From positions 62,001-126,000 of the forward strand of contig CAMYIE010000001.1 in NCBI GenBank assembly GCA_947258405.1: 64,000 nt of DNA, in the 5' to 3' direction. Positions within the stretch are counted from its first letter, which is position 1. The number at the start of each line of letters is the position of its first letter. The notes below the pieces were generated by a model that was given only the letters and a program-made list of their open reading frames with translations, made no database searches and was not told the DNA's origin. The translations under genes and the position numbers were made by a program. The DNA is from an uncultured Eudoraea sp. GTDB taxonomy: Bacteria; Bacteroidota; Bacteroidia; Flavobacteriales; Flavobacteriaceae. Shown piece after piece: positions 52,376-61,448 of the stretch.

Positions 52376-53662
52376 TTAACGCTCTAATGCCTTTTTCATT
52401 TTAGAAAGGATCTCATCAAGACAAAGATCACCTATACTTCCCTTATGAGTATGATGCAGCTCGCGCTTAGGACTAAAAGTTCCTTTTTGAATTTCATCAC
52501 CTACCTGTTTATAGGCGTCCCTGAATGGTACTCCCTGTTGCACCAGCTCATTGACACGTTCCACAGAGTAAATGTATTTGTATTTCGGATCATCCAGGAT
52601 ATGGTCATTCACTTTAATGCTTTGAAGTGCCGAAGAAAGCATATCCAGACAGGCTTTCATTTCCTGAATCGCTGGGAGGATCACCTCTTTTGTAAGCTGC
52701 ATATCTCTGTGATAGCCGCTTGGCAGATTGTTCATCAGTAGCGTTAGTTGGTTGGGGATAGCCTGGATTATATTGCATTTGGCTCTGATAAGTTCGAATA
52801 CATCCGGGTTCTGTTTATGAGGCATGATGCTGCTTCCGGTGGTGAACTCCTCGGGGAAAGTGAGAAAATTGAAATTCTGACTCATATACAGGCATATATC
52901 CATCGAAAATCTTGAGATAGTCGCGGCCAGCGAGGCCAATCCAAATGAAGTGATTTTCTCGACCTTTCCCCGCCCCATCTGCGCTGCTATCACATTGAAT
53001 TTCTGCGTGTGAAACTCCAAACTCTCTCGTGTAAATTCCCTGTCGATCGGGAATGAACTCCCATATCCCGCGGCACTTCCAAGTGGATTCTGATCTACGA
53101 TTTTCAAAGCGGCATTCAGCATATACACGTCGTCGATCAATGATTCTGCATAGGCAGAAAACCATAGTCCGAATGAAGATGGCATCGCCACCTGAAGATG
53201 TGTATAGCCGGGCATTTGTACTGACTTGTATTTTTCGGCAAGTGCCATCAACTGGTCAAATAATTCCGAAGATCCGTTTCGTATCTGTTTTAGTTCATCC
53301 TTGAGAAACAACTGGATAGCCACAAGGACCTGGTCATTGCGCGATCGGGCGGTATGGATCTTTTTACCGGTATCGCCTAGTCTTTGAGTAAGCAAATACT
53401 CAATTTTGGAATGCATGTCCTCAAACTCATTTTCTATAGTGAAATTACCTTCAGCGATATCAACTCCGATCCGTTCCAATTCAGCGAGTAATCGATCGGT
53501 TTCAGCAGAGGTTAGCAAGCCAATTTTACCCAACATTGCAGCATGAGCCTTTGAAGCGATTACATCGTATTTTGCCAATATTAAATCGAGCTCCCGATCA
53601 TTTCCAACAGTAAACCGATCTACCTTAGCATCAGCATTGCTCCCTTTATCCCAGAGTTTCAT
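52376..53662 (-). CDS. argH: Argininosuccinate lyase
   Basis: This 428-residue enzyme splits argininosuccinate to arginine and fumarate. The fumarase-superfamily signature GSSIMPHKQNPDVFELIRAK and the segments SRNDQVLVAIQLF and MPGYTHLQVAMPSSFG are clear. It is the last gene of the arginine operon, 57 bp after the M20 deacylase. The length is a little short but normal for Bacteroidota ArgH. The first ATG, in a good N-terminal context (MKLWDKG), is used. Confidence 0.96.
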   Translation of the reverse strand: MKLWDKGSNADAKVDRFTVGNDRELDLILAKYDVIASKAHAAMLGKIGLLTSAETDRLLAELERIGVDIAEGNFTIENEFEDMHSKIEYLLTQRLGDTGKKIHTARSRNDQVLVAIQLFLKDELKQIRNGSSELFDQLMALAEKYKSVQMPGYTHLQVAMPSSFGLWFSAYAESLIDDVYMLNAALKIVDQNPLGSAAGYGSSFPIDREFTRESLEFHTQKFNVIAAQMGRGKVEKITSFGLASLAATISRFSMDICLYMSQNFNFLTFPEEFTTGSSIMPHKQNPDVFELIRAKCNIIQAIPNQLTLLMNNLPSGYHRDMQLTKEVILPAIQEMKACLDMLSSALQSIKVNDHILDDPKYKYIYSVERVNELVQQGVPFRDAYKQVGDEIQKGTFSPKRELHHTHKGSIGDLCLDEILSKMKKALER

Positions 53663-53719
53663 ATAGTTTTTATTTTGATTCTAGCATTCATAATATCAAA
53701 TGGCTTGCCATTGAATTGA

Positions 53720-54796
53720 TCAGGCAGTAAGCAGAAATCTCCTTAAGAGTTCTATATATATGGAAATTCCTTCTTCTATTTCCTCAACATAAATAAATTC
53801 GTCGGCCGAATGTGATCTTGTACTATCGCCAGGGCCTAGTTTTAAGGATTGACAACTCAGAGCTGCCTGGTCGGAAAGCGTTGGAGAACCATAGGTTTTA
53901 CGACCCAGTTGAACACCTGCCTTTATAAGGAGATGATTTTTGTCGATCGAAGAAGAATTTAAACGCAAAGACCTTGCCTTTAGTTCGCAGGGTGCATCAT
54001 TGATCAGGATATCAGCAATCTGCTGATTGGTATAGCAATCATTAACCCTCACATCGATCACTAAATTCACTTCAGCAGGCACTACATTATGTTGATCCCC
54101 TGCCTGAATTTGTGTTACCGTAATTTTGGTTTCCCCAAGTGTATCAGATATCTTTTCAAAGGAATAATCCTTAAACCACTTAAGCACTTCAATACTGTTA
54201 TAAATAGCGTTATTGCCGTTTGGATGTGCCGCATGAGATGGAGTTCCCTTTATACTCCCTTCGAAAACCACCAGGCCTTTTTCAGCTATTGCCAAATGCA
54301 TTTGAGTTGGCTCTCCAACTATTGCCAACTCTATAGGTGGTAACAGTTGCAGTACACTGTTAAGACCATTAGGTCCTGAGCTTTCTTCTTCTGCTGAGGC
54401 TACTATTATAAGATTATGACTCATTTCGCTATTGGTATAATAGTAAGAAAACAGTGCCAGCAAAGCGACAAGACATCCGCCGGCATCATTACTTCCCAAC
54501 CCGTACAGCTTTCCATCCTCGATCACCGCCTGAAAGGGATCTCTCGTATATGCAGCATTCGGTCTAACCGTATCGTGGTGAGAGTTCAGCAGTAAATTGG
54601 GCTTAGCCGGATCATAAAATTTATTCATCGCATATACATTATTGCGATGTCTGTGGCAGGCAATATCCTGTGAACTGAACCAATCTTCAATCAAGCTTGC
54701 AGTCTTGTCTTCCGCCGAGGAAAAGGAAGGGCAGGTGATTAACTGCTTTAATAGCAGAAGGGCATTTTCTGTAAGCTGTTCCGTAATACTACTCAT
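53720..54796 (-). CDS. argE: M20 deacylase, N-acetyl/succinyl-citrulline or ornithine type
   Basis: This 358-residue M20-family zinc deacylase has LLNSHHDTVRPN (first metal histidine), SNDAGGCLVALLA and SAEEESSGPNGL (metal and general base glutamates), and a SHAAHPNGNNA dimerisation segment. Because the neighbouring transcarbamylase is ArgF', it probably deacylates N-acylcitrulline rather than N-acylornithine. ATG 54796 is chosen over an upstream in-frame ATG inside argB: it overlaps argB's TGA by ATGA and begins at the domain. The acyl group (acetyl or succinyl) depends on the rest of the pathway. Confidence 0.9.
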   Translation of the reverse strand: MSSITEQLTENALLLLKQLITCPSFSSAEDKTASLIEDWFSSQDIACHRHRNNVYAMNKFYDPAKPNLLLNSHHDTVRPNAAYTRDPFQAVIEDGKLYGLGSNDAGGCLVALLALFSYYYTNSEMSHNLIIVASAEEESSGPNGLNSVLQLLPPIELAIVGEPTQMHLAIAEKGLVVFEGSIKGTPSHAAHPNGNNAIYNSIEVLKWFKDYSFEKISDTLGETKITVTQIQAGDQHNVVPAEVNLVIDVRVNDCYTNQQIADILINDAPCELKARSLRLNSSSIDKNHLLIKAGVQLGRKTYGSPTLSDQAALSCQSLKLGPGDSTRSHSADEFIYVEEIEEGISIYIELLRRFLLTA

Positions 54797-55593
54797 AACG
54801 TTATAGTTGTATATTCCTCCGCATCTTGCTGAAGCATACCGATGTCTCCAATGCATACCTTGTGGACTCCTGCCTCTAATGCGTTGAAGCAGTTATGGAG
54901 TTTAGGCAACATACCATCGCCTATTATTTGTTGTTCCAGCAATTGATTATAGCTGTTTTTATCGATTTTTCGGATAATACTATCTGCCTCTTCCATATTG
55001 GATAATACACCTTTTTTCTCAAAACAATAGAGAAGAGAAACCTCAAAGGTACCACTAAGGCCAACAGCGAGTTCCGAGGCGATAGTATCTGCATTGGTAT
55101 TCAGCAACTGACCCTTACCATTGTGAGTAAGCGCACAAAATACCGGAGTGATCTCATTCTTTATCAGAAGTGATATCGGTCTGGGATTAACTTGTTCTAT
55201 GTCTCCAACAAAGCCGAAGTCTACTTCACCTACAGGTCGTTTATGGGCCAGAATTGTGTTGCCGTCTGCACCACATAATCCTATGGCATTACAGTTTTTG
55301 GCCTGTAATCCCGCCACTATGGTTTTATTCAACAAGCCTGCGTAGACCATGACAACCACCTCCAGACTCTCACCACTAGTAATCCTTCTGCCCTTATAAA
55401 CCTTCGATTCCAGACCAAGCTTGCCTTCTATTTCGGTAGCTCTTTTACCTCCTCCATGTACCAGAATTTTATGACCTTCCATCTGTGCAAATCGCTCTAA
55501 CAGTACATTGAGCATCACCCGATCTTCTATTATCTGACCTCCGACTTTTACAATATTCAAACCTGGTTTTCTATGTACTTTCACGATATCCAT
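54793..55593 (-). CDS. argB: N-acylglutamate kinase
   Basis: This 266-residue amino-acid-kinase-fold enzyme phosphorylates N-acetyl- or N-succinylglutamate. It has NIVKVGGQIIED and HGGGKRATEIE (nucleotide site), GLCGADGNTILA and LNTNADTIASELA, the metal- and substrate-binding stretches of acetylglutamate kinases. It lies 1 bp after argF' and overlaps argE by 4 bases. If the pathway uses succinyl groups, as ArgF' residue A90 suggests, this kinase must accept N-succinylglutamate. Length is typical for the Bacteroidota form without an arginine-sensing N-terminal helix. Confidence 0.93.
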   Translation of the reverse strand: MDIVKVHRKPGLNIVKVGGQIIEDRVMLNVLLERFAQMEGHKILVHGGGKRATEIEGKLGLESKVYKGRRITSGESLEVVVMVYAGLLNKTIVAGLQAKNCNAIGLCGADGNTILAHKRPVGEVDFGFVGDIEQVNPRPISLLIKNEITPVFCALTHNGKGQLLNTNADTIASELAVGLSGTFEVSLLYCFEKKGVLSNMEEADSIIRKIDKNSYNQLLEQQIIGDGMLPKLHNCFNALEAGVHKVCIGDIGMLQQDAEEYTTITL

Positions 55594-55594
55594 G

Positions 55595-56533
55595 TTAGTT
55601 CGACTCCAATATCTTTTTTAGAACCAATTGTGCAGCATAGGTACGGTTGTTGGCTTGTGCATGAACCAGAGACTTATCACTGTCCAGCACTGCATCCTCA
55701 ACCACTACGTTTCTGCGAACTGGCAGGCAATGCATAAAATTTGCACTCCCGAGTTTATTCTCTGTCATCATCCAGTCACGATCCTGATGTAATACCTTAC
55801 CATAATCTTTGTAGCTGCTCCAATTCTTTACATATACAAAATCGGCATTTTCCAATGCCTTTTGCTGATCGTATTCTATTGTGCAATTACCGGTTATTTG
55901 TGGATTCAGTTCATATCCGGGAGGATGTGTAAGAACAAAATCGACTTCGCTCATTTGCATCACTTCAACAAATGAATTCGCCACCGCATGGGGCAGGGGT
56001 CTTGGATGGGGAGCCCAAGACAATACTACCTTGGTTTTTTTTGTTTTCCTGAATTCTTCAATAGTAATTGCATCGGCCAGGGCCTGTAGTGGATGATGGA
56101 TGGAGCTTTCCATATTTATTATGGGCACGCCGGCATATTTCTTAAATCCGTTCAGGACTAATTCTGCCTCATCGCTTTGTTTATCCTGAAGTGATGCAAA
56201 GGCTCTTACCGCAATAATATCGGAATATTGAGCGACTACCTGGGCAGCTTCTTTTATGTGCTCGGCGCTATTGCGATCCATAATCGAACCGTCTTCAAAG
56301 TCGAGGATCCAGCCATCCTTACCTATATTCATAACCATCACGTCCATACCCAGATTAAGGGCGGCTTTATGGGTACTCATACGCGTCCTCAGGCTGCTGT
56401 TGAAAAAAAGCAAAGCCAGGGTCTTGTTTCGCCCGAGATCTCGGAACCGCAATGGATCTTTCTTCATTTCCATAGCCGTTTTAACCCAATCGGACAGATG
56501 GTCTATATTTTTTACGGTCAGGTAGTTTTTCAT
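55595..56533 (-). CDS. argF': N-acyl-ornithine carbamoyltransferase (ArgF' type)
   Basis: This 312-residue transcarbamylase has the carbamoyl-phosphate motif SSLRTRMSTHKAA (residues 46-58), HHPLQALADAITIEEF and FMHCLPVRRN. It belongs to the ArgF'/acylornithine branch rather than OTC, as shown by DRNSAEHIKEA in the 86-96 region. At residue 90 it has Ala, where Xanthomonas acetylornithine transcarbamylase has Glu92 and Bacteroides fragilis succinylornithine transcarbamylase has Pro90. Exchanges at this site are reported to switch substrate. The enzyme makes N-acylcitrulline. It overlaps argD's stop by ATGA. Confidence 0.93.
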   Translation of the reverse strand: MKNYLTVKNIDHLSDWVKTAMEMKKDPLRFRDLGRNKTLALLFFNSSLRTRMSTHKAALNLGMDVMVMNIGKDGWILDFEDGSIMDRNSAEHIKEAAQVVAQYSDIIAVRAFASLQDKQSDEAELVLNGFKKYAGVPIINMESSIHHPLQALADAITIEEFRKTKKTKVVLSWAPHPRPLPHAVANSFVEVMQMSEVDFVLTHPPGYELNPQITGNCTIEYDQQKALENADFVYVKNWSSYKDYGKVLHQDRDWMMTENKLGSANFMHCLPVRRNVVVEDAVLDSDKSLVHAQANNRTYAAQLVLKKILESN

Positions 56534-57657
56534 ATCAATTCAGCTTTAAGTGCGTTGAAAAACTGCTCGATCTCTTTTTTGCCGATGGTCAGTGCAGGCA
56601 GGACCCTTAAAACGTTTTTGTTCTTCGAGCTACCCGTAAAAATCCGATATTGATAAATAAGGTTTTTTCTGAGTTCGGCTACTTCAAAATCAAATTCGAG
56701 TCCCAGCATCAGCCCTCTGCCTTTTACCTGTTTCACCTGTGGGACCTCTGTCGCCATTTGCCTGAAAACCTTTTCCATTTCAATGGCGTTTTTCATCAGG
56801 TCTTGCTGTTCAATCACATCCAATACCGAAATAGCGGCTGTACAAGCGAGGTGATTCCCGCCAAAAGTAGTTCCGAGCATACCATAGCGCGATTCGAATC
56901 TTTTATGTATCAAAACACCTCCAACAGGAAATCCATTACCCATACCTTTCGCCATGGTGATCAGATCGGGAGCTATGCCGTGGTGCTGAAAGCCAAAAAA
57001 CCGACCTGTTCTCCCAAAACCGCACTGCACTTCGTCTGCAATTAGGATGATGTTCTTTTCCCTGCACTTGCCCGACACCAGTTTATAAAAGTCTTTAGTG
57101 GGCTGATCTAATCCTCCCACGCCCTGAACCGCCTCGAGAATCACAGCGCAGACCTCCTTGTCCTCTGTAGCTTTTAAGAAACCCTGGGTATCGTTAAGAT
57201 CCAGGAATTCAACAGGCTGAAGTTTATTAATAGGAGCCTGAATTGAAGCGTTGTCTGTAACCGCCACCGCCGCAGAAGTCCTTCCGTGAAAGCTGTTCCT
57301 GAAAGCGATCACTTTGGTTTTAGCCGTAGCAAAAGAGGCTAATTTAAGAGCATTTTCATTGGCTTCAGCTCCGGTACTACACAAAAAAAGATTGTAGTCC
57401 CCACAACCTGAAAGGGATTGGAGCTTTAAGGCGAGCTTTTCCTGCAATGGATTTACCACAGAGTTACTATAAAAACCGATTTTATCCAGTTGTTCCTTTA
57501 GCAGCTTAACATAATGAGGATGGGAATGTCCTATTGATATCACCGCATGGCCTCCGTACAGGTCGAGATAAGAAACACCTTGAGTGTCCTTAATATATAG
57601 CCCATCGGCTGATTCTGGTACAATGTCATATAAAGGATAGACGTTGAATAGCTCCAT
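56530..57657 (-). CDS. argD: N-acylornithine aminotransferase
   Basis: This 375-residue class III PLP-dependent aminotransferase has the cofactor segments STGAEANENALKLA and ADEVQCGFGRTGRFFGFQHH. The pyridoxal lysine lies in ITMAKGMGNGFPVGG. It converts N-acylglutamate semialdehyde to N-acylornithine. The neighbours identify it as the arginine enzyme rather than a GABA-type paralogue. It starts 3 bp after the proC stop and overlaps argF' by 4 bases, so coupling is tight. Length is typical of bacterial ArgD. Confidence 0.93.
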   Translation of the reverse strand: MELFNVYPLYDIVPESADGLYIKDTQGVSYLDLYGGHAVISIGHSHPHYVKLLKEQLDKIGFYSNSVVNPLQEKLALKLQSLSGCGDYNLFLCSTGAEANENALKLASFATAKTKVIAFRNSFHGRTSAAVAVTDNASIQAPINKLQPVEFLDLNDTQGFLKATEDKEVCAVILEAVQGVGGLDQPTKDFYKLVSGKCREKNIILIADEVQCGFGRTGRFFGFQHHGIAPDLITMAKGMGNGFPVGGVLIHKRFESRYGMLGTTFGGNHLACTAAISVLDVIEQQDLMKNAIEMEKVFRQMATEVPQVKQVKGRGLMLGLEFDFEVAELRKNLIYQYRIFTGSSKNKNVLRVLPALTIGKKEIEQFFNALKAELI

Positions 57658-57660
57658 ATA

Positions 57661-58458
57661 CTAGTTTGAGGATTTAAACTCACTGATCTTCTCATTGGAA
57701 GCTACAATGCCACGAATCAGGGAGGAACTCAAACCCTGATGTTCCATTTCGTTAAGCCCCTGTATGGTACAACCCATAGGCGTGGTAACTTTGTCTATTT
57801 CTTCCTCCGGGTGATTTCCCGATTCGATAAGAAGCCCTGCGGCCCCGTTACAGGTATGCATAGCCAGCTCCTGAGCTTCTTTGGCATCAAAACCTAATTG
57901 AATAGCACCCTGTGTAGTAGCCCGGATAAGGCGCATCCAAAATGCGATCCCACTGGCACAAATCACCGTGGCAGCCTGCATCAGCTCTTCCGGAATCTCG
58001 AGCGTATGACCCATCCGGTCAAAAATGGCTGTCGCCAGCTCTATTCGCTTTTTTCCCATATCGTTACTACATACACAGGTCATGGACTTGCCTACTGAAA
58101 TAGCGGTATTTGGCATACTTCTGATAATATAGGTATCCGTTCCCAGAATGGATTCCATTTTATCGATACTAAAACCCGTTATGGTAGAAATAAGCACATG
58201 TTTATCGCTGAGCAGCGGTTTTACTTCGTGCAGGATATCAGCAAAATGACCCGGTTGCACAGCAAAGATCAGCACGTCGGATTCTTGTACTGCCTTAACA
58301 TTGTCGGAACCAACAGTTACATTACCGTAATTTTCAAAATGACGGATACTATCGGGATTCCTTTTGGTGAGGAACATCGTTGTGGCTCCATTGCTGTGAA
58401 GTATACCCTTAGCGATTGATATCCCAAGATTTCCAGCTCCGATTATTGCTATTTTCAT
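57661..58458 (-). CDS. proC: Pyrroline-5-carboxylate reductase
   Basis: This 265-residue NAD(P)-dependent reductase makes proline from pyrroline-5-carboxylate. The Rossmann loop MKIAIIGAGNLGISIAKG begins the protein, and the C-terminal signature VTTPMGCTIQGLNEME is conserved in ProC. Its presence between argC and argD joins proline synthesis to the arginine operon, plausibly because both start from glutamate semialdehyde. It lies 3 bp before argD and 39 bp after argC, with no promoter seen. Confidence 0.93.
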   Translation of the reverse strand: MKIAIIGAGNLGISIAKGILHSNGATTMFLTKRNPDSIRHFENYGNVTVGSDNVKAVQESDVLIFAVQPGHFADILHEVKPLLSDKHVLISTITGFSIDKMESILGTDTYIIRSMPNTAISVGKSMTCVCSNDMGKKRIELATAIFDRMGHTLEIPEELMQAATVICASGIAFWMRLIRATTQGAIQLGFDAKEAQELAMHTCNGAAGLLIESGNHPEEEIDKVTTPMGCTIQGLNEMEHQGLSSSLIRGIVASNEKISEFKSSN

Positions 58459-58497
58459 ATCTAATTTTGTTAGATTCTAATGGTTGCTTTATGATTT

Positions 58498-59472
58498 TTA
58501 AAATACGCCGGCTTTTAGTTTTAAACCTTGCTTTTGGTCTAGACCAAACATGAGGTTCATATTTTGAACCGCCTGGCCGGACGCACCCTTTAACAGATTA
58601 TCGATGGCCGACGTAATCAGCAGGACATCGCCGTGTTTATGAAGGTGTATATGACATTGGTTCGTATTTACCACCTGTTTTAATTCAATAGGTTGCTCAA
58701 CTACCTGGGTAAATACCGCATCGGAATAAAACTTCCTGAATAAATCGTTGGCTTCAGATTCACTGCCATTGAATACGGTGTAGGCTGTGATGAGAATACC
58801 CCGACTGAAATTTCCCCGATAGGGTAAAAAATATAGTTCCCCGGCACTTTTCTGTAAGGAAGAGACGGTTTGCCCGATTTCCTTCAGATGTTGGTGAGTA
58901 AAGGGTTTATACCATGAAAGATTGTTATTTCGCCAACTAAAATGAGTGGTTGAAGATGGTTTTACACCTGCTCCCGTACTTCCGGTAACACCGTTGATAT
59001 GGACTGACGATTCTAAGAGCTGCTGATCGGCCAGTGGGAGTAATGCCAGTTGAATGGCGGTGGCAAAACATCCGGGGTTAGCAACATTCCGGGCCCTGGA
59101 GATCTTGTCTGCCTGGAGTTCCGGTAATCCGTAAATAAATGTTCGCTCTTCGAAAACCGCATTTTCTTCATGCCTGAAGTCTGTGCTGAGATCAATGATT
59201 TTAGTATGCTTAGAAAGGCTGTAATTTTTTAAAAACTCATTGGAATGACCATGCCCCAGACAGAGAAAGATCACATCTGCTTCGGTATTCACCTTGTCGG
59301 TAAACAAAAGATCAGTAATGCCCGAAAGATCTGGATGTGTCCCGGAAATTTTTGTTCCCGGACGGGTACTGCTATAAACAAAGTCGAGTGATGTTTCTTC
59401 GTGTTGAAGAAGGAGGCGAATGAGTTCCCCTCCGGTATAACCCGATCCACCTATAATTCCTGCTTTAATCAT
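58498..59472 (-). CDS. argC: N-acyl-gamma-glutamyl-phosphate reductase
   Basis: This 324-residue NADPH-dependent dehydrogenase reduces N-acylglutamyl phosphate to the semialdehyde. The N-terminus has the nucleotide-binding segment IIGGSGYTGGELIRLL, and the catalytic cysteine lies in VANPGCFATAIQLALLP. GVTGSTGAGVKPSSTTHF is the family's substrate segment. The start overlaps the argG stop by 8 bases. The gene follows the operon order GNAT-argG-argC. The histidine proton donor region HQHLKEIG is also present. Confidence 0.95.
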   Translation of the reverse strand: MIKAGIIGGSGYTGGELIRLLLQHEETSLDFVYSSTRPGTKISGTHPDLSGITDLLFTDKVNTEADVIFLCLGHGHSNEFLKNYSLSKHTKIIDLSTDFRHEENAVFEERTFIYGLPELQADKISRARNVANPGCFATAIQLALLPLADQQLLESSVHINGVTGSTGAGVKPSSTTHFSWRNNNLSWYKPFTHQHLKEIGQTVSSLQKSAGELYFLPYRGNFSRGILITAYTVFNGSESEANDLFRKFYSDAVFTQVVEQPIELKQVVNTNQCHIHLHKHGDVLLITSAIDNLLKGASGQAVQNMNLMFGLDQKQGLKLKAGVF

Positions 59473-60655
59473 GTTTTCCTTCTGTTTGATTTGCTATTTT
59501 ACCCGGATTGGAGAGTATTTTAATAAACCCTTTGGCATCCTCTGCCGTCCATCCCTGGTTCATCTCACCATAACTTCCAAAATCTTTGTTCATAAGATCG
59601 TAAGGAGACCGAACCCCATCGAGAGTAAAACGAAACGGGTGCAGCGTGATAAAGACTTCACCTGAAACCTTTTTCTGGGTATCCATCAAAAAAGCTTCGA
59701 TGTTTCGCATAACCTCATCCAGATAATTCCCTTCATGAAGGAGCATACCGTAAAAGTTTCCCAGTTGTTCTTTCTGATATTGCTGCCATTTGCTAAGTGT
59801 ATGTTTTTCGAGGAGATGGTGTGCTTTTATGATCAATAAAGGTGCAGCCGCTTCGAATCCCACCCGGCCTTTGATGCCGATAATGGTATCCCCTACATGT
59901 ATGTCCCTGCCAATGGCATATCGACTACCAAGTGAGTTGAGCTTTTCAATAAGGACTATCGCCTGATCTGCCTTATCATTTATCGCCACCAGTTCTCCTC
60001 TGTCGAAGCTCAATTTTATTTGCTGAGGCTCAGTTTCCTCCAATTGACTGGGATAAGCCTCTTCGGGTAATGGGAGATGAGAGGTGAGTGTTTCGTCACC
60101 GCCGACGGAAGTGCCCCATAAGCCTTTATTTATAGAATATTTGGCTTTTGCCCAGTTCATATCGATACCTTCACTTTTAAGGTAGGCGATCTCCTCCTCT
60201 CGTGATAATCTATGGTCACGGATCGGTGTCACAATTTCCAGCTCCGGCGCCAAAATCTGGAAAATACTGTCAAATCGGACCTGGTCATTACCAGCCCCCG
60301 TACTGCCGTGGCCAACGTGGGTTGCTCCCAGTTTTTTAGCATATCCGGCTATTTCGATTGCCTGAACGATTCGTTCTGCACTTACTGATAATGGATAAGT
60401 ATTGTTTCTTAAAACGTTTCCAAATATCAGGTACTTAATAACCGTATCGTAATAGGTTTGTACCGCGTTTATGGACGTATAGGATTTTGCTCCCAGTGCA
60501 ATGGCCTTCTTCTCTGTTTCAGAGATTTCTTCCTGGGTAAACCCTCCTGTATTTACACTTACAGCATTCACCTCGAACCCCTTTTCTTTAGAGAGATATT
60601 TTGTGCAATAAGAGGTATCCAATCCTCCGCTATAAGCAAGAACCAATTTTTTCAT
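59465..60655 (-). CDS. argG: Argininosuccinate synthase
   Basis: This 396-residue enzyme joins citrulline and aspartate with ATP. The ATP-pyrophosphatase loop is LAYSGGLDTSYCTKYLS, and the segments VGHGSTGAGNDQVRFD and AKYSINKGLWGTSVGGDE fit ArgG. It is the second gene of the operon, and its ATG overlaps the GNAT stop by 4 bases, so it is coupled to that gene. It ends with an 8-base overlap with argC. Length is normal. Confidence 0.97.
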   Translation of the reverse strand: MKKLVLAYSGGLDTSYCTKYLSKEKGFEVNAVSVNTGGFTQEEISETEKKAIALGAKSYTSINAVQTYYDTVIKYLIFGNVLRNNTYPLSVSAERIVQAIEIAGYAKKLGATHVGHGSTGAGNDQVRFDSIFQILAPELEIVTPIRDHRLSREEEIAYLKSEGIDMNWAKAKYSINKGLWGTSVGGDETLTSHLPLPEEAYPSQLEETEPQQIKLSFDRGELVAINDKADQAIVLIEKLNSLGSRYAIGRDIHVGDTIIGIKGRVGFEAAAPLLIIKAHHLLEKHTLSKWQQYQKEQLGNFYGMLLHEGNYLDEVMRNIEAFLMDTQKKVSGEVFITLHPFRFTLDGVRSPYDLMNKDFGSYGEMNQGWTAEDAKGFIKILSNPGKIANQTEGKHD

Positions 60656-61269
60656 GAGGTATTTTTATTGAGGAACAGTCGGGTCTTTATTTTTTGAAGT
60701 CGTTTAAAGGCTTTACTGTTTAGTTTGTCTTTTTTGATCTTGATTCGTTTATCCGGGTCATACAGCATTCCTGTACAAAGGCACATTTTCCGATCTGTTC
60801 TGGTGAGGATATCAAAGTTCTTACAAGTCTGACAACCCCTCCAAAATTCCGGATCATTGGTCAGTTCAGAAAATGTTACAGGTTTATAGCCCAGCTCGTA
60901 GTTCATTTTCATTACTGCAAGGCCTGTGGTAATCCCAAAAATTTTGGCATCGGGAAATTTTTTCCTTGAGAGCTCAAAAATGGTCTTCTTTATTTCTTTA
61001 GCGAGGCCTATTTTTCTGTAATCAGGATGTACTATTAGCCCGGAATTGGCAACAAACTTCTTATGACCCCAAACTTCGATATAGCAAAATCCTGCAAATT
61101 TATCCCCGTCGAGAGCTATCACAGCATTTCCGTTGACCAGGCGTTTGATGATATATTCTGCTGATCTTTTGGCGATACCCGTACCCCTTACCTTAGCAGA
61201 TTCTGATATCGTCTGACTGATGACCTGTGCGTATTTTATATGTGACTCATTCGCAATTGCAATTTTCAT
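60652..61269 (-). CDS. GNAT-family acyltransferase, probable N-acylglutamate synthase
   Basis: This 205-residue GNAT protein has the acetyl-CoA pyrophosphate loop region VHPDYRKIGLAKEIKKTIF. A C-terminal basic extension contains four cysteines in GCQTCKNFD and KMCLCTGM. The position at the head of an operon for acylated arginine intermediates suggests it starts the pathway by acylating glutamate (acetyl or succinyl), but this is not proven. The cysteine pairs look like a metal site and are unusual for GNAT. The start is the first ATG of the frame, ~160 bp after the leader promoter. It overlaps argG by 4 bases. Confidence 0.8.
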   Translation of the reverse strand: MKIAIANESHIKYAQVISQTISESAKVRGTGIAKRSAEYIIKRLVNGNAVIALDGDKFAGFCYIEVWGHKKFVANSGLIVHPDYRKIGLAKEIKKTIFELSRKKFPDAKIFGITTGLAVMKMNYELGYKPVTFSELTNDPEFWRGCQTCKNFDILTRTDRKMCLCTGMLYDPDKRIKIKKDKLNSKAFKRLQKIKTRLFLNKNTS

Positions 61270-61355
61270 TGCCCTGAATTTTTATGAAAGAAAAGAAAGA
61301 CTATTGAGAGATTTGCGGAAATGGACGCACCTATTTCCATTACAGAAGCACACCC

Positions 61356-61433
61356 TTACGGGCGAGGGCGAACGCGGAACAACGCAGGCGCGATAGAATT
61401 CGGGCCAATGTTATGTAGTGCTTCTTTATTCAT
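61356..61433 (-). CDS. Candidate arginine attenuation leader peptide
   Basis: A 25-codon minus-strand ORF begins ATG at 61433 and ends TAA at 61356-61358. Its last residues read LFRVRPRP, with three CGC arginine codons among the last six sense codons. It lies upstream of the arginine operon, 87 bp before the GNAT start, and its stretch is GC-rich compared with its surroundings. A -7 box (61441-61448) sits just before it, which would make it nearly leaderless. Two alternative short stems follow (GGAAAT with ATTTCC, or AATGGA with TCCATT) but no classical T-run. I infer ribosome-mediated attenuation; it is unproven. Confidence 0.5.
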   Translation of the reverse strand: MNKEALHNIGPNSIAPALFRVRPRP

Positions 61434-61440
61434 TGAACAT

Positions 61441-61448
61441 CAAATGTA
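61441..61448 (-). promoter_or_regulatory. Candidate -7 promoter box for the arginine operon
   Basis: On the minus strand TACATTTG fits the TAnnTTTG consensus exactly. A start ~5 bp downstream would place the first base within a few bases of the leader ATG at 61433 and give a ~165-base leader before the GNAT gene. No properly spaced upstream TTG was seen. Confidence 0.4.

Follow-up and report, generated by a model that had tools for sequence, protein, structure and literature searches.

A leader reading frame ending in arginine codons is conserved before the arginine operon in Flavobacteriaceae and may sense arginine through the ribosome

The window, i.e., the whole stretch of 64,000 nucleotides analysed here, carries an operon of nine arginine and proline genes, which begins with the gene of a GNAT-type acyltransferase and ends with argH. 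This gene content is as described in the first-pass annotation, which had been made from the window's letters alone and had proposed an arginine attenuator upstream of the operon. Among named relatives, a Robiginitalea MAG is the closest, sharing 96% identity in the first operon gene. The encoded acyltransferase reaches no NCBIfam cut-off; in these bacteria, it is a candidate enzyme for the N-acylation that opens arginine synthesis. The short leader ORF upstream of it ends with the codons TTC CGC GTT CGC CCT CGC CCG TAA, and the first-pass annotation had correctly read three CGC arginine codons within its final six sense codons as well as an adjoining -7 box. The leader's stop codon begins 89 nt upstream of the first operon gene's start. 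We take the -7 box to be of the Bacteroidota type, the consensus of which is TANNTTTG; transcription is predicted to start close to the leader ATG, which would make the leader near-leaderless. Two hairpins, H1 and H2, follow the Arg codons and are separated from the operon by a G-poor spacer (Table 1).

Table 1. Features of the leader region and the arginine operon (positions within the window)
Feature	Position	Strand	Description
-7 promoter box	61441..61448	(-)	TACATTTG; ends 7 nt before leader ATG
Leader ORF	61356..61433	(-)	MNKEALHNIGPNSIAPALFRVRPRP; 25 aa, ATG start, TAA stop, C-terminal LFRVRPRP
Hairpin H1	61351..61364	(-)	CGCCC-GUAA-GGGUG; UAA stop in loop; 5' arm formed by last Arg and Pro codons
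H1-H2 linker	61339..61350	(-)	12 nt; U-rich and G-poor in relatives
Hairpin H2	61317..61338	(-)	GGAAAU-A-GG-UGCGU-CC-AUUUCC; bulged A; core GGUGNGUCC
G-poor spacer, H2 to first operon gene	61270..61316	(-)	
Small hairpin over first-gene AUG	61259..61272	(-)	GCAAU-GAAA-AUUGC; -4.8 kcal/mol; role uncertain
First operon gene	60652..61269	(-)	GNAT-type acyltransferase
Remaining operon	52376..60655	(-)	argG, argC, proC, argD, N-acylornithine carbamoyltransferase, argB, argE-like, argH

Corresponding leader loci were fetched via the first operon gene, which yielded 80 named loci and 30 loci from 60 relatives. The same block recurs before the first gene: a -7 box and the near-leaderless ORF ending in Arg codons, followed by H1, a linker of about 12 nt, the bulged H2 with its GGUGNGUCC core and the spacer. 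In the relatives, H2 has the form GGAAAU-A-GG-UGNGU-CC-AUUUCC, and the spacer after it mostly comprises 46 to 51 nt. The linker, the length of which could be determined to within 1 nt, comprises 12 to 13 nt in 84 of 97 leaders and consists of 46% U and only 6% G (99 leaders). Exclusion of L032, a duplicate of L003, of L026 to L031, which lack the H2 pattern, and of two exact duplicates left 101 distinct leaders from the 110 loci. A strict -7 box is present before the leader ATG in 58 of these 101 leaders and is located 5 to 9 nt from the ATG in 56 of the 58.

A covariance model detects the element in 123 of 199 genomes of the family, and the first operon gene is present in 130 of the same genomes. 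Both occur together in 121 genomes, two possess only the element, nine only the gene and 67 neither of them. In all 121 genomes with both, the element is located upstream of the first gene on the same strand and contig; the median distance is 47 nt, and 113 of the 121 distances fall within 35 to 70 nt. In G108 and G175, which have the element only, it is followed by an acyltransferase-like ORF and then by argG and argC, which indicates that the element goes with the operon. The acyltransferase-like ORF of G108 and G175 is a different one, which replaces the GNAT gene. Among the gene-only genomes, an Arg-ending ORF is found upstream in G034, G133, G163, G203 and G204, and by eye in G105; no such ORF was found upstream of the gene in G089, G093 and G150. 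In a sample of the order, which is rich in a large genus without the element (g146), 24 of 296 genomes match the model, 22 of which belong to the family and two of which were judged to be false. These two out-of-family matches (G044 and G361, with E values of about 0.01) were discarded on inspection by eye, since they resemble a terminator and a tRNA-adjacent hairpin; a second match in G201 (27 bits) was rejected as it lies at a different locus.

The window's own genome contains one strong match to the model with 72.8 bits, and the next matches reach 13.5 and 13.0 bits. A repeat or mobile element was rejected as an explanation, since the 210-nt intergenic region matches only itself in this genome, and so was a tRNA gene, none of which was found within the window. 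A search against Rfam gave no match at the gathering score in the window; the best weak match on the strand of the element was Fibro-purF with 14.8 bits against a cut-off of 60. The H2-core pattern TAGGTGNGTCC matches twice in the own genome, the second time inside a long open frame on another contig, and a reversed control pattern matches three times.

At least two Arg codons are present among the final six codons in 99 of the 101 leaders and at least three in 84, figures that lean towards Arg, as the reading frame was chosen partly by Arg count. A subset of 82 leaders, which have a single ATG ORF of 24 to 29 codons and were further picked by stop position, ends with CCG (Pro) at codon -1 and CGC (Arg) at codon -2 in all 82 cases. 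Codon -4 encodes Arg in 76 and codon -3 in 74 of the 82; the remaining eight have Pro at codon -3, as does the window. These counts lend comparative support to the earlier reading as an arginine attenuator. Arg at codons -2, -3 and -4 of the subset is encoded solely by CGT or CGC, and CGY accounts for 366 of 378 Arg codons in the final ten codons of the 101 leaders, compared with 38 of 183 Arg codons across 14 window genes. This bias may partly reflect RNA structure, because the last CGC is part of H1. In 33 pairs of leaders, with each sequence used once and the start and the last three codons left out, codon positions 1, 2 and 3 carry 116, 80 and 155 differences. The synonymous share of changed codons is 0.307 compared with 0.210 under a null model in which the types of change are preserved, and none of 500 null runs reached 0.307. 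On this comparative evidence, the leader ORF is under coding constraint, also outside H1.

For the RNA structure, 53 of 100 sequences were picked for diversity, and 52 were kept after L024 had been dropped. In this alignment, 94.9% of cells pair and seven of 13 pairs show two-sided changes; its covariation score was reached by none of 500 shuffles, although the sequences are related and this count, like those on codon usage, terminators, composition and accessibility, is therefore not made up of independent cases. An alignment of 75 likewise related model matches (70 distinct rows), which was fitted to the covariance model's own structure, gave 96.0% pairing and again two-sided changes in seven of 13 pairs and no equal score in 500 shuffles. 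H2 covaries strongly, with two-sided changes in six of its eight pairs, while its GG/CC pairs are invariant in 70 of 70 rows and its GGUGNGUCC core is nearly invariant. H1, in contrast, covaries weakly: it is short, 15 of 67 sequences have a broken outer pair, and a two-sided change occurs in only one of five pairs and in a single sequence, so that covariation support for H1 is thin. The first-pass annotation had seen only weak stems after the ORF and missed both hairpins; since H2 is conserved and covarying, this caveat has to be changed.

Arg-rich leaders are also found beyond the family. A search with ArgG gave matches in 107 of 118 genomes of the phylum. Of 40 upstream regions taken, L199 to L203 were dropped as they had no assigned first-gene ORF, and 35 were tested. 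In 24 of the 35 regions, the last twelve codons of an ORF include three or more Arg, compared with nine regions on the opposite strand, and the Arg-rich ORF exceeds the region's own shuffles at 0.05 in 20 of the 35. All eleven genomes of family f35 have an Arg-rich leader ORF, which uses CGG codons and has ends such as RRIPRRR. Ten of 12 loci of the families f17, f18, f19, f22 and f23 reach at least three Arg, with seven of the 12 exceeding their shuffles, and the loci L028 and L030 of family f2 also end in Arg runs. None of four further genomes of genus g146 and neither of two of family f5 has an Arg-rich leader ORF. The theme is thus wide but not universal, and RNA and codons of the Arg leaders differ between lineages. 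Genus g146 (L144, L178 to L181) keeps the first gene and argG, and no Arg-ending leader ORF was found in the stretch examined upstream of these loci. In the f35 leaders (L184 to L193), early leader codons appear to form a long-range helix with the region preceding the first gene; the helix and its two-sided changes between species were seen by eye in the alignment.

For the family of the window, sequence comparison shows where the ORF lies and that it is under coding constraint, that the Arg codons, H1 and the covarying H2 are conserved, and that the element is strictly linked to the operon. The first-pass annotation had named a lack of conservation as the result that would refute its proposal; the ORF, the Arg codons and the hairpins are kept in relatives with the operon. 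Most probably, the element is a conserved ribosome-mediated leader that senses arginine via its Arg codons, with the masking of H1 as the switch; we infer translation, stalling, the direction of control and the readout from the arrangement of the sequence. RNA polymerase would begin a few bases 5' of the leader ATG, and a ribosome would translate the 25-codon ORF on the nearly leaderless RNA. When charged Arg-tRNA is low, the ribosome would stall on the CGY codons that closely precede the stop codon. As the latter lies in the loop of H1, stalling on codons -4 to -2 would place the ribosome over the 5' arm of this hairpin and hold the hairpin open. With ample arginine, the ribosome would get to the stop codon and depart, and H1 would be free to form. 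An open H1 would thus correspond to the operon being on and a closed H1 to the operon being off. With the Arg codons placed by the 5' arm of H1 and the stop codon within its loop, the arrangement points to a ribosome that masks H1 directly, and not to a switch between two long structures.

The mutually exclusive alternative structure of an attenuator was looked for and not found, which leaves only an H1 masked directly by the ribosome. Seven comparisons across 84 leaders revealed no conserved alternative pairing, with mean z values between -0.33 and +0.43. Only three leaders, those of the window, of its sister L003 and of Robiginitalea SC105 (L083), have a strong helix that joins the start of the ORF to the linker; in the window (61339-61424), AGAAGCAC of the ORF start can pair with GTGCTTCT of the linker, and there is no trend in the 84 leaders.

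The readout of H1 could take several forms. No intrinsic terminator was found by a strict scan of the window, as the first-pass annotation had also concluded. In a looser test, H1 and the U-rich linker are terminator-like in 45 of the 101 related leaders compared with 14 expected, and the window is not among the matches listed. H1 followed by the U-rich linker could therefore lead to pausing or weak termination of transcription. The spacer contains 6.6% G compared with 15.5% in 157 control upstream regions and has more C than G, which would suit Rho acting in the G-poor spacer; the first-gene start codon is less accessible than that of control ORFs (mean 0.25 vs. 0.47), and the control ORF starts were taken mechanically, so some of them will be wrong. 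Two of four groups of relatives have a predicted hairpin at the first-gene AUG, which would, together with the low accessibility, suit translational control of the first gene. The element would work like an attenuator, and the terminator of the classical type was looked for in the window and not found.

A comparable ORF, with an ATG start, 12 to 40 amino acids and at least three Arg in the final six codons, appeared in 38 of 5000 sequences obtained by dinucleotide shuffling of the 210-nt intergenic region. Taken without conservation, this is unusual and indecisive, and the case for the leader therefore rests on conservation. The shuffles would allow for a functionless ORF that arose by chance within a GC-richer patch; its conservation and linkage to the operon, however, leave this explanation a negligible probability and refute it as far as sequence conservation can. 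It is also unlikely that the leader peptide itself is the sensor, i.e., that free arginine binds a ribosome with a ...RRRP chain and causes arrest at the stop codon, for which the fungal arginine attenuator peptide and TnaC are precedents of nascent-peptide arrest. This would explain the Pro at codon -1 in all 82 leaders and the fixed position of the stop in the H1 loop, and related sequences such as APVRPFxPRRRP recur within genera; between families, however, only the Arg richness and some Pro are kept, and peptides and lengths differ.

Several findings speak against sensing by Arg codons as the best explanation: the window has no terminator-like site, no conserved alternative pairing was found, H1 is short, nine genomes of the family have the first gene without a model match, the genomes tested from g146 and f5 have no Arg-rich leader ORF, and the conserved loop of H2 would be unnecessary for pure codon sensing. 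H2 could instead be a protein- or ligand-binding RNA, with Arg codons that merely shape H1. The near invariance of the GGUGNGUCC core on a covarying stem would fit such a role, and the bulged A, the GG/CC pairs and the small loop resemble a protein-binding hairpin. We nevertheless regard H2 binding alone as very unlikely, as the coding constraint on the leader ORF extends outside H1, Arg-rich ORFs persist in families with a different or absent H2 loop, and the short element has a single copy in its own genome, well above the next matches. A tentative extension of ribosome-mediated sensing, which we consider possible but doubtful, is as follows: an Arg-tRNA-sensing leader ORF would control arginine biosynthesis in a large part of the Bacteroidota and be remodelled per lineage, with CGY codons and H1/H2 here and CGG codons and another RNA in f35. 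In the family of the window, a ribosome on near-leaderless RNA would then mask the hairpin bearing its own stop codon without a classical terminator, and the invariant bulged H2 would recruit a factor or pause RNA polymerase.

Ribosome-mediated attenuators of amino acid operons are known from the trp, his, leu, thr and phe leaders of other bacteria, and textbook attenuation refers to tryptophan, histidine and branched-chain operons. Like them, the leader described here has a short ORF in which end-product codons are frequent, lies between promoter and operon and is followed by hairpins, and it shows the clustered end-product codons and the conservation of ORF and regulatory codons with the operon that mark a ribosome-mediated attenuator. 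It differs from them in the amino acid, the near-leaderless ORF, the stop codon inside a hairpin loop and the additional sequence-conserved H2, and in that neither an intrinsic terminator (in the window) nor a competing pairing was found. The fungal arginine attenuator peptide is likewise encoded by a leader ORF before an arginine biosynthesis gene; it is eukaryotic, and its conserved peptide senses free arginine, whereas Arg codons rather than a fixed peptide are common to the families studied here, with similar peptides only within genera. The pyrBI attenuator of E. coli senses UTP through polymerase pausing; as in the present case, its leader ORF enters a hairpin, and a ribosome near the end of the ORF would block that hairpin, but no strong terminator was found here. 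To our knowledge, attenuation of a bacterial arginine biosynthetic operon has not been described, and a search of the open-access literature yielded no description of an arginine leader before a Bacteroidota arginine operon. Bacteroidota have unusual promoters and largely lack Shine-Dalgarno sequences; little is known about their transcriptional and translational control.

Two reports come close to the proposed system. For Flavobacterium psychrophilum, which belongs to the same family as the window, strong clues for leader peptide attenuation before amino acid biosynthesis operons were reported, and the available part of that report lists pheA and hisG among structured 5' elements conserved in other genera and does not name the arginine operon (PMC9723704). 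According to a 2026 study, slow Arg codons in the short leader ORF rbfL of S. aureus sense arginine restriction, as proposed here, and rbfL, which overlaps with a biofilm regulator's ribosome binding site, represses this regulator by occlusion (PMC13009471). The rbfL codons given there are the rare AGA and AGG (PMC13009471), unlike the CGC of the window. The present leader also differs in that its stop codon lies well before the next start and in that the genes behind it serve arginine biosynthesis. A comparative survey of attenuation from 2010 is cited in PMC4833913.

In a subset of relatives, a further Arg-ending ORF, e.g., MKNLKNKIRCSVPGLPARNYRRCF, is located about 130 to 220 nt upstream of H1. 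Several members of a subset (L012 to L019, L025, L148, L149, L161 and L162) have two tandem Arg-rich ORFs before the operon, and an NKIR-like stretch is common to many of the upstream ORFs.
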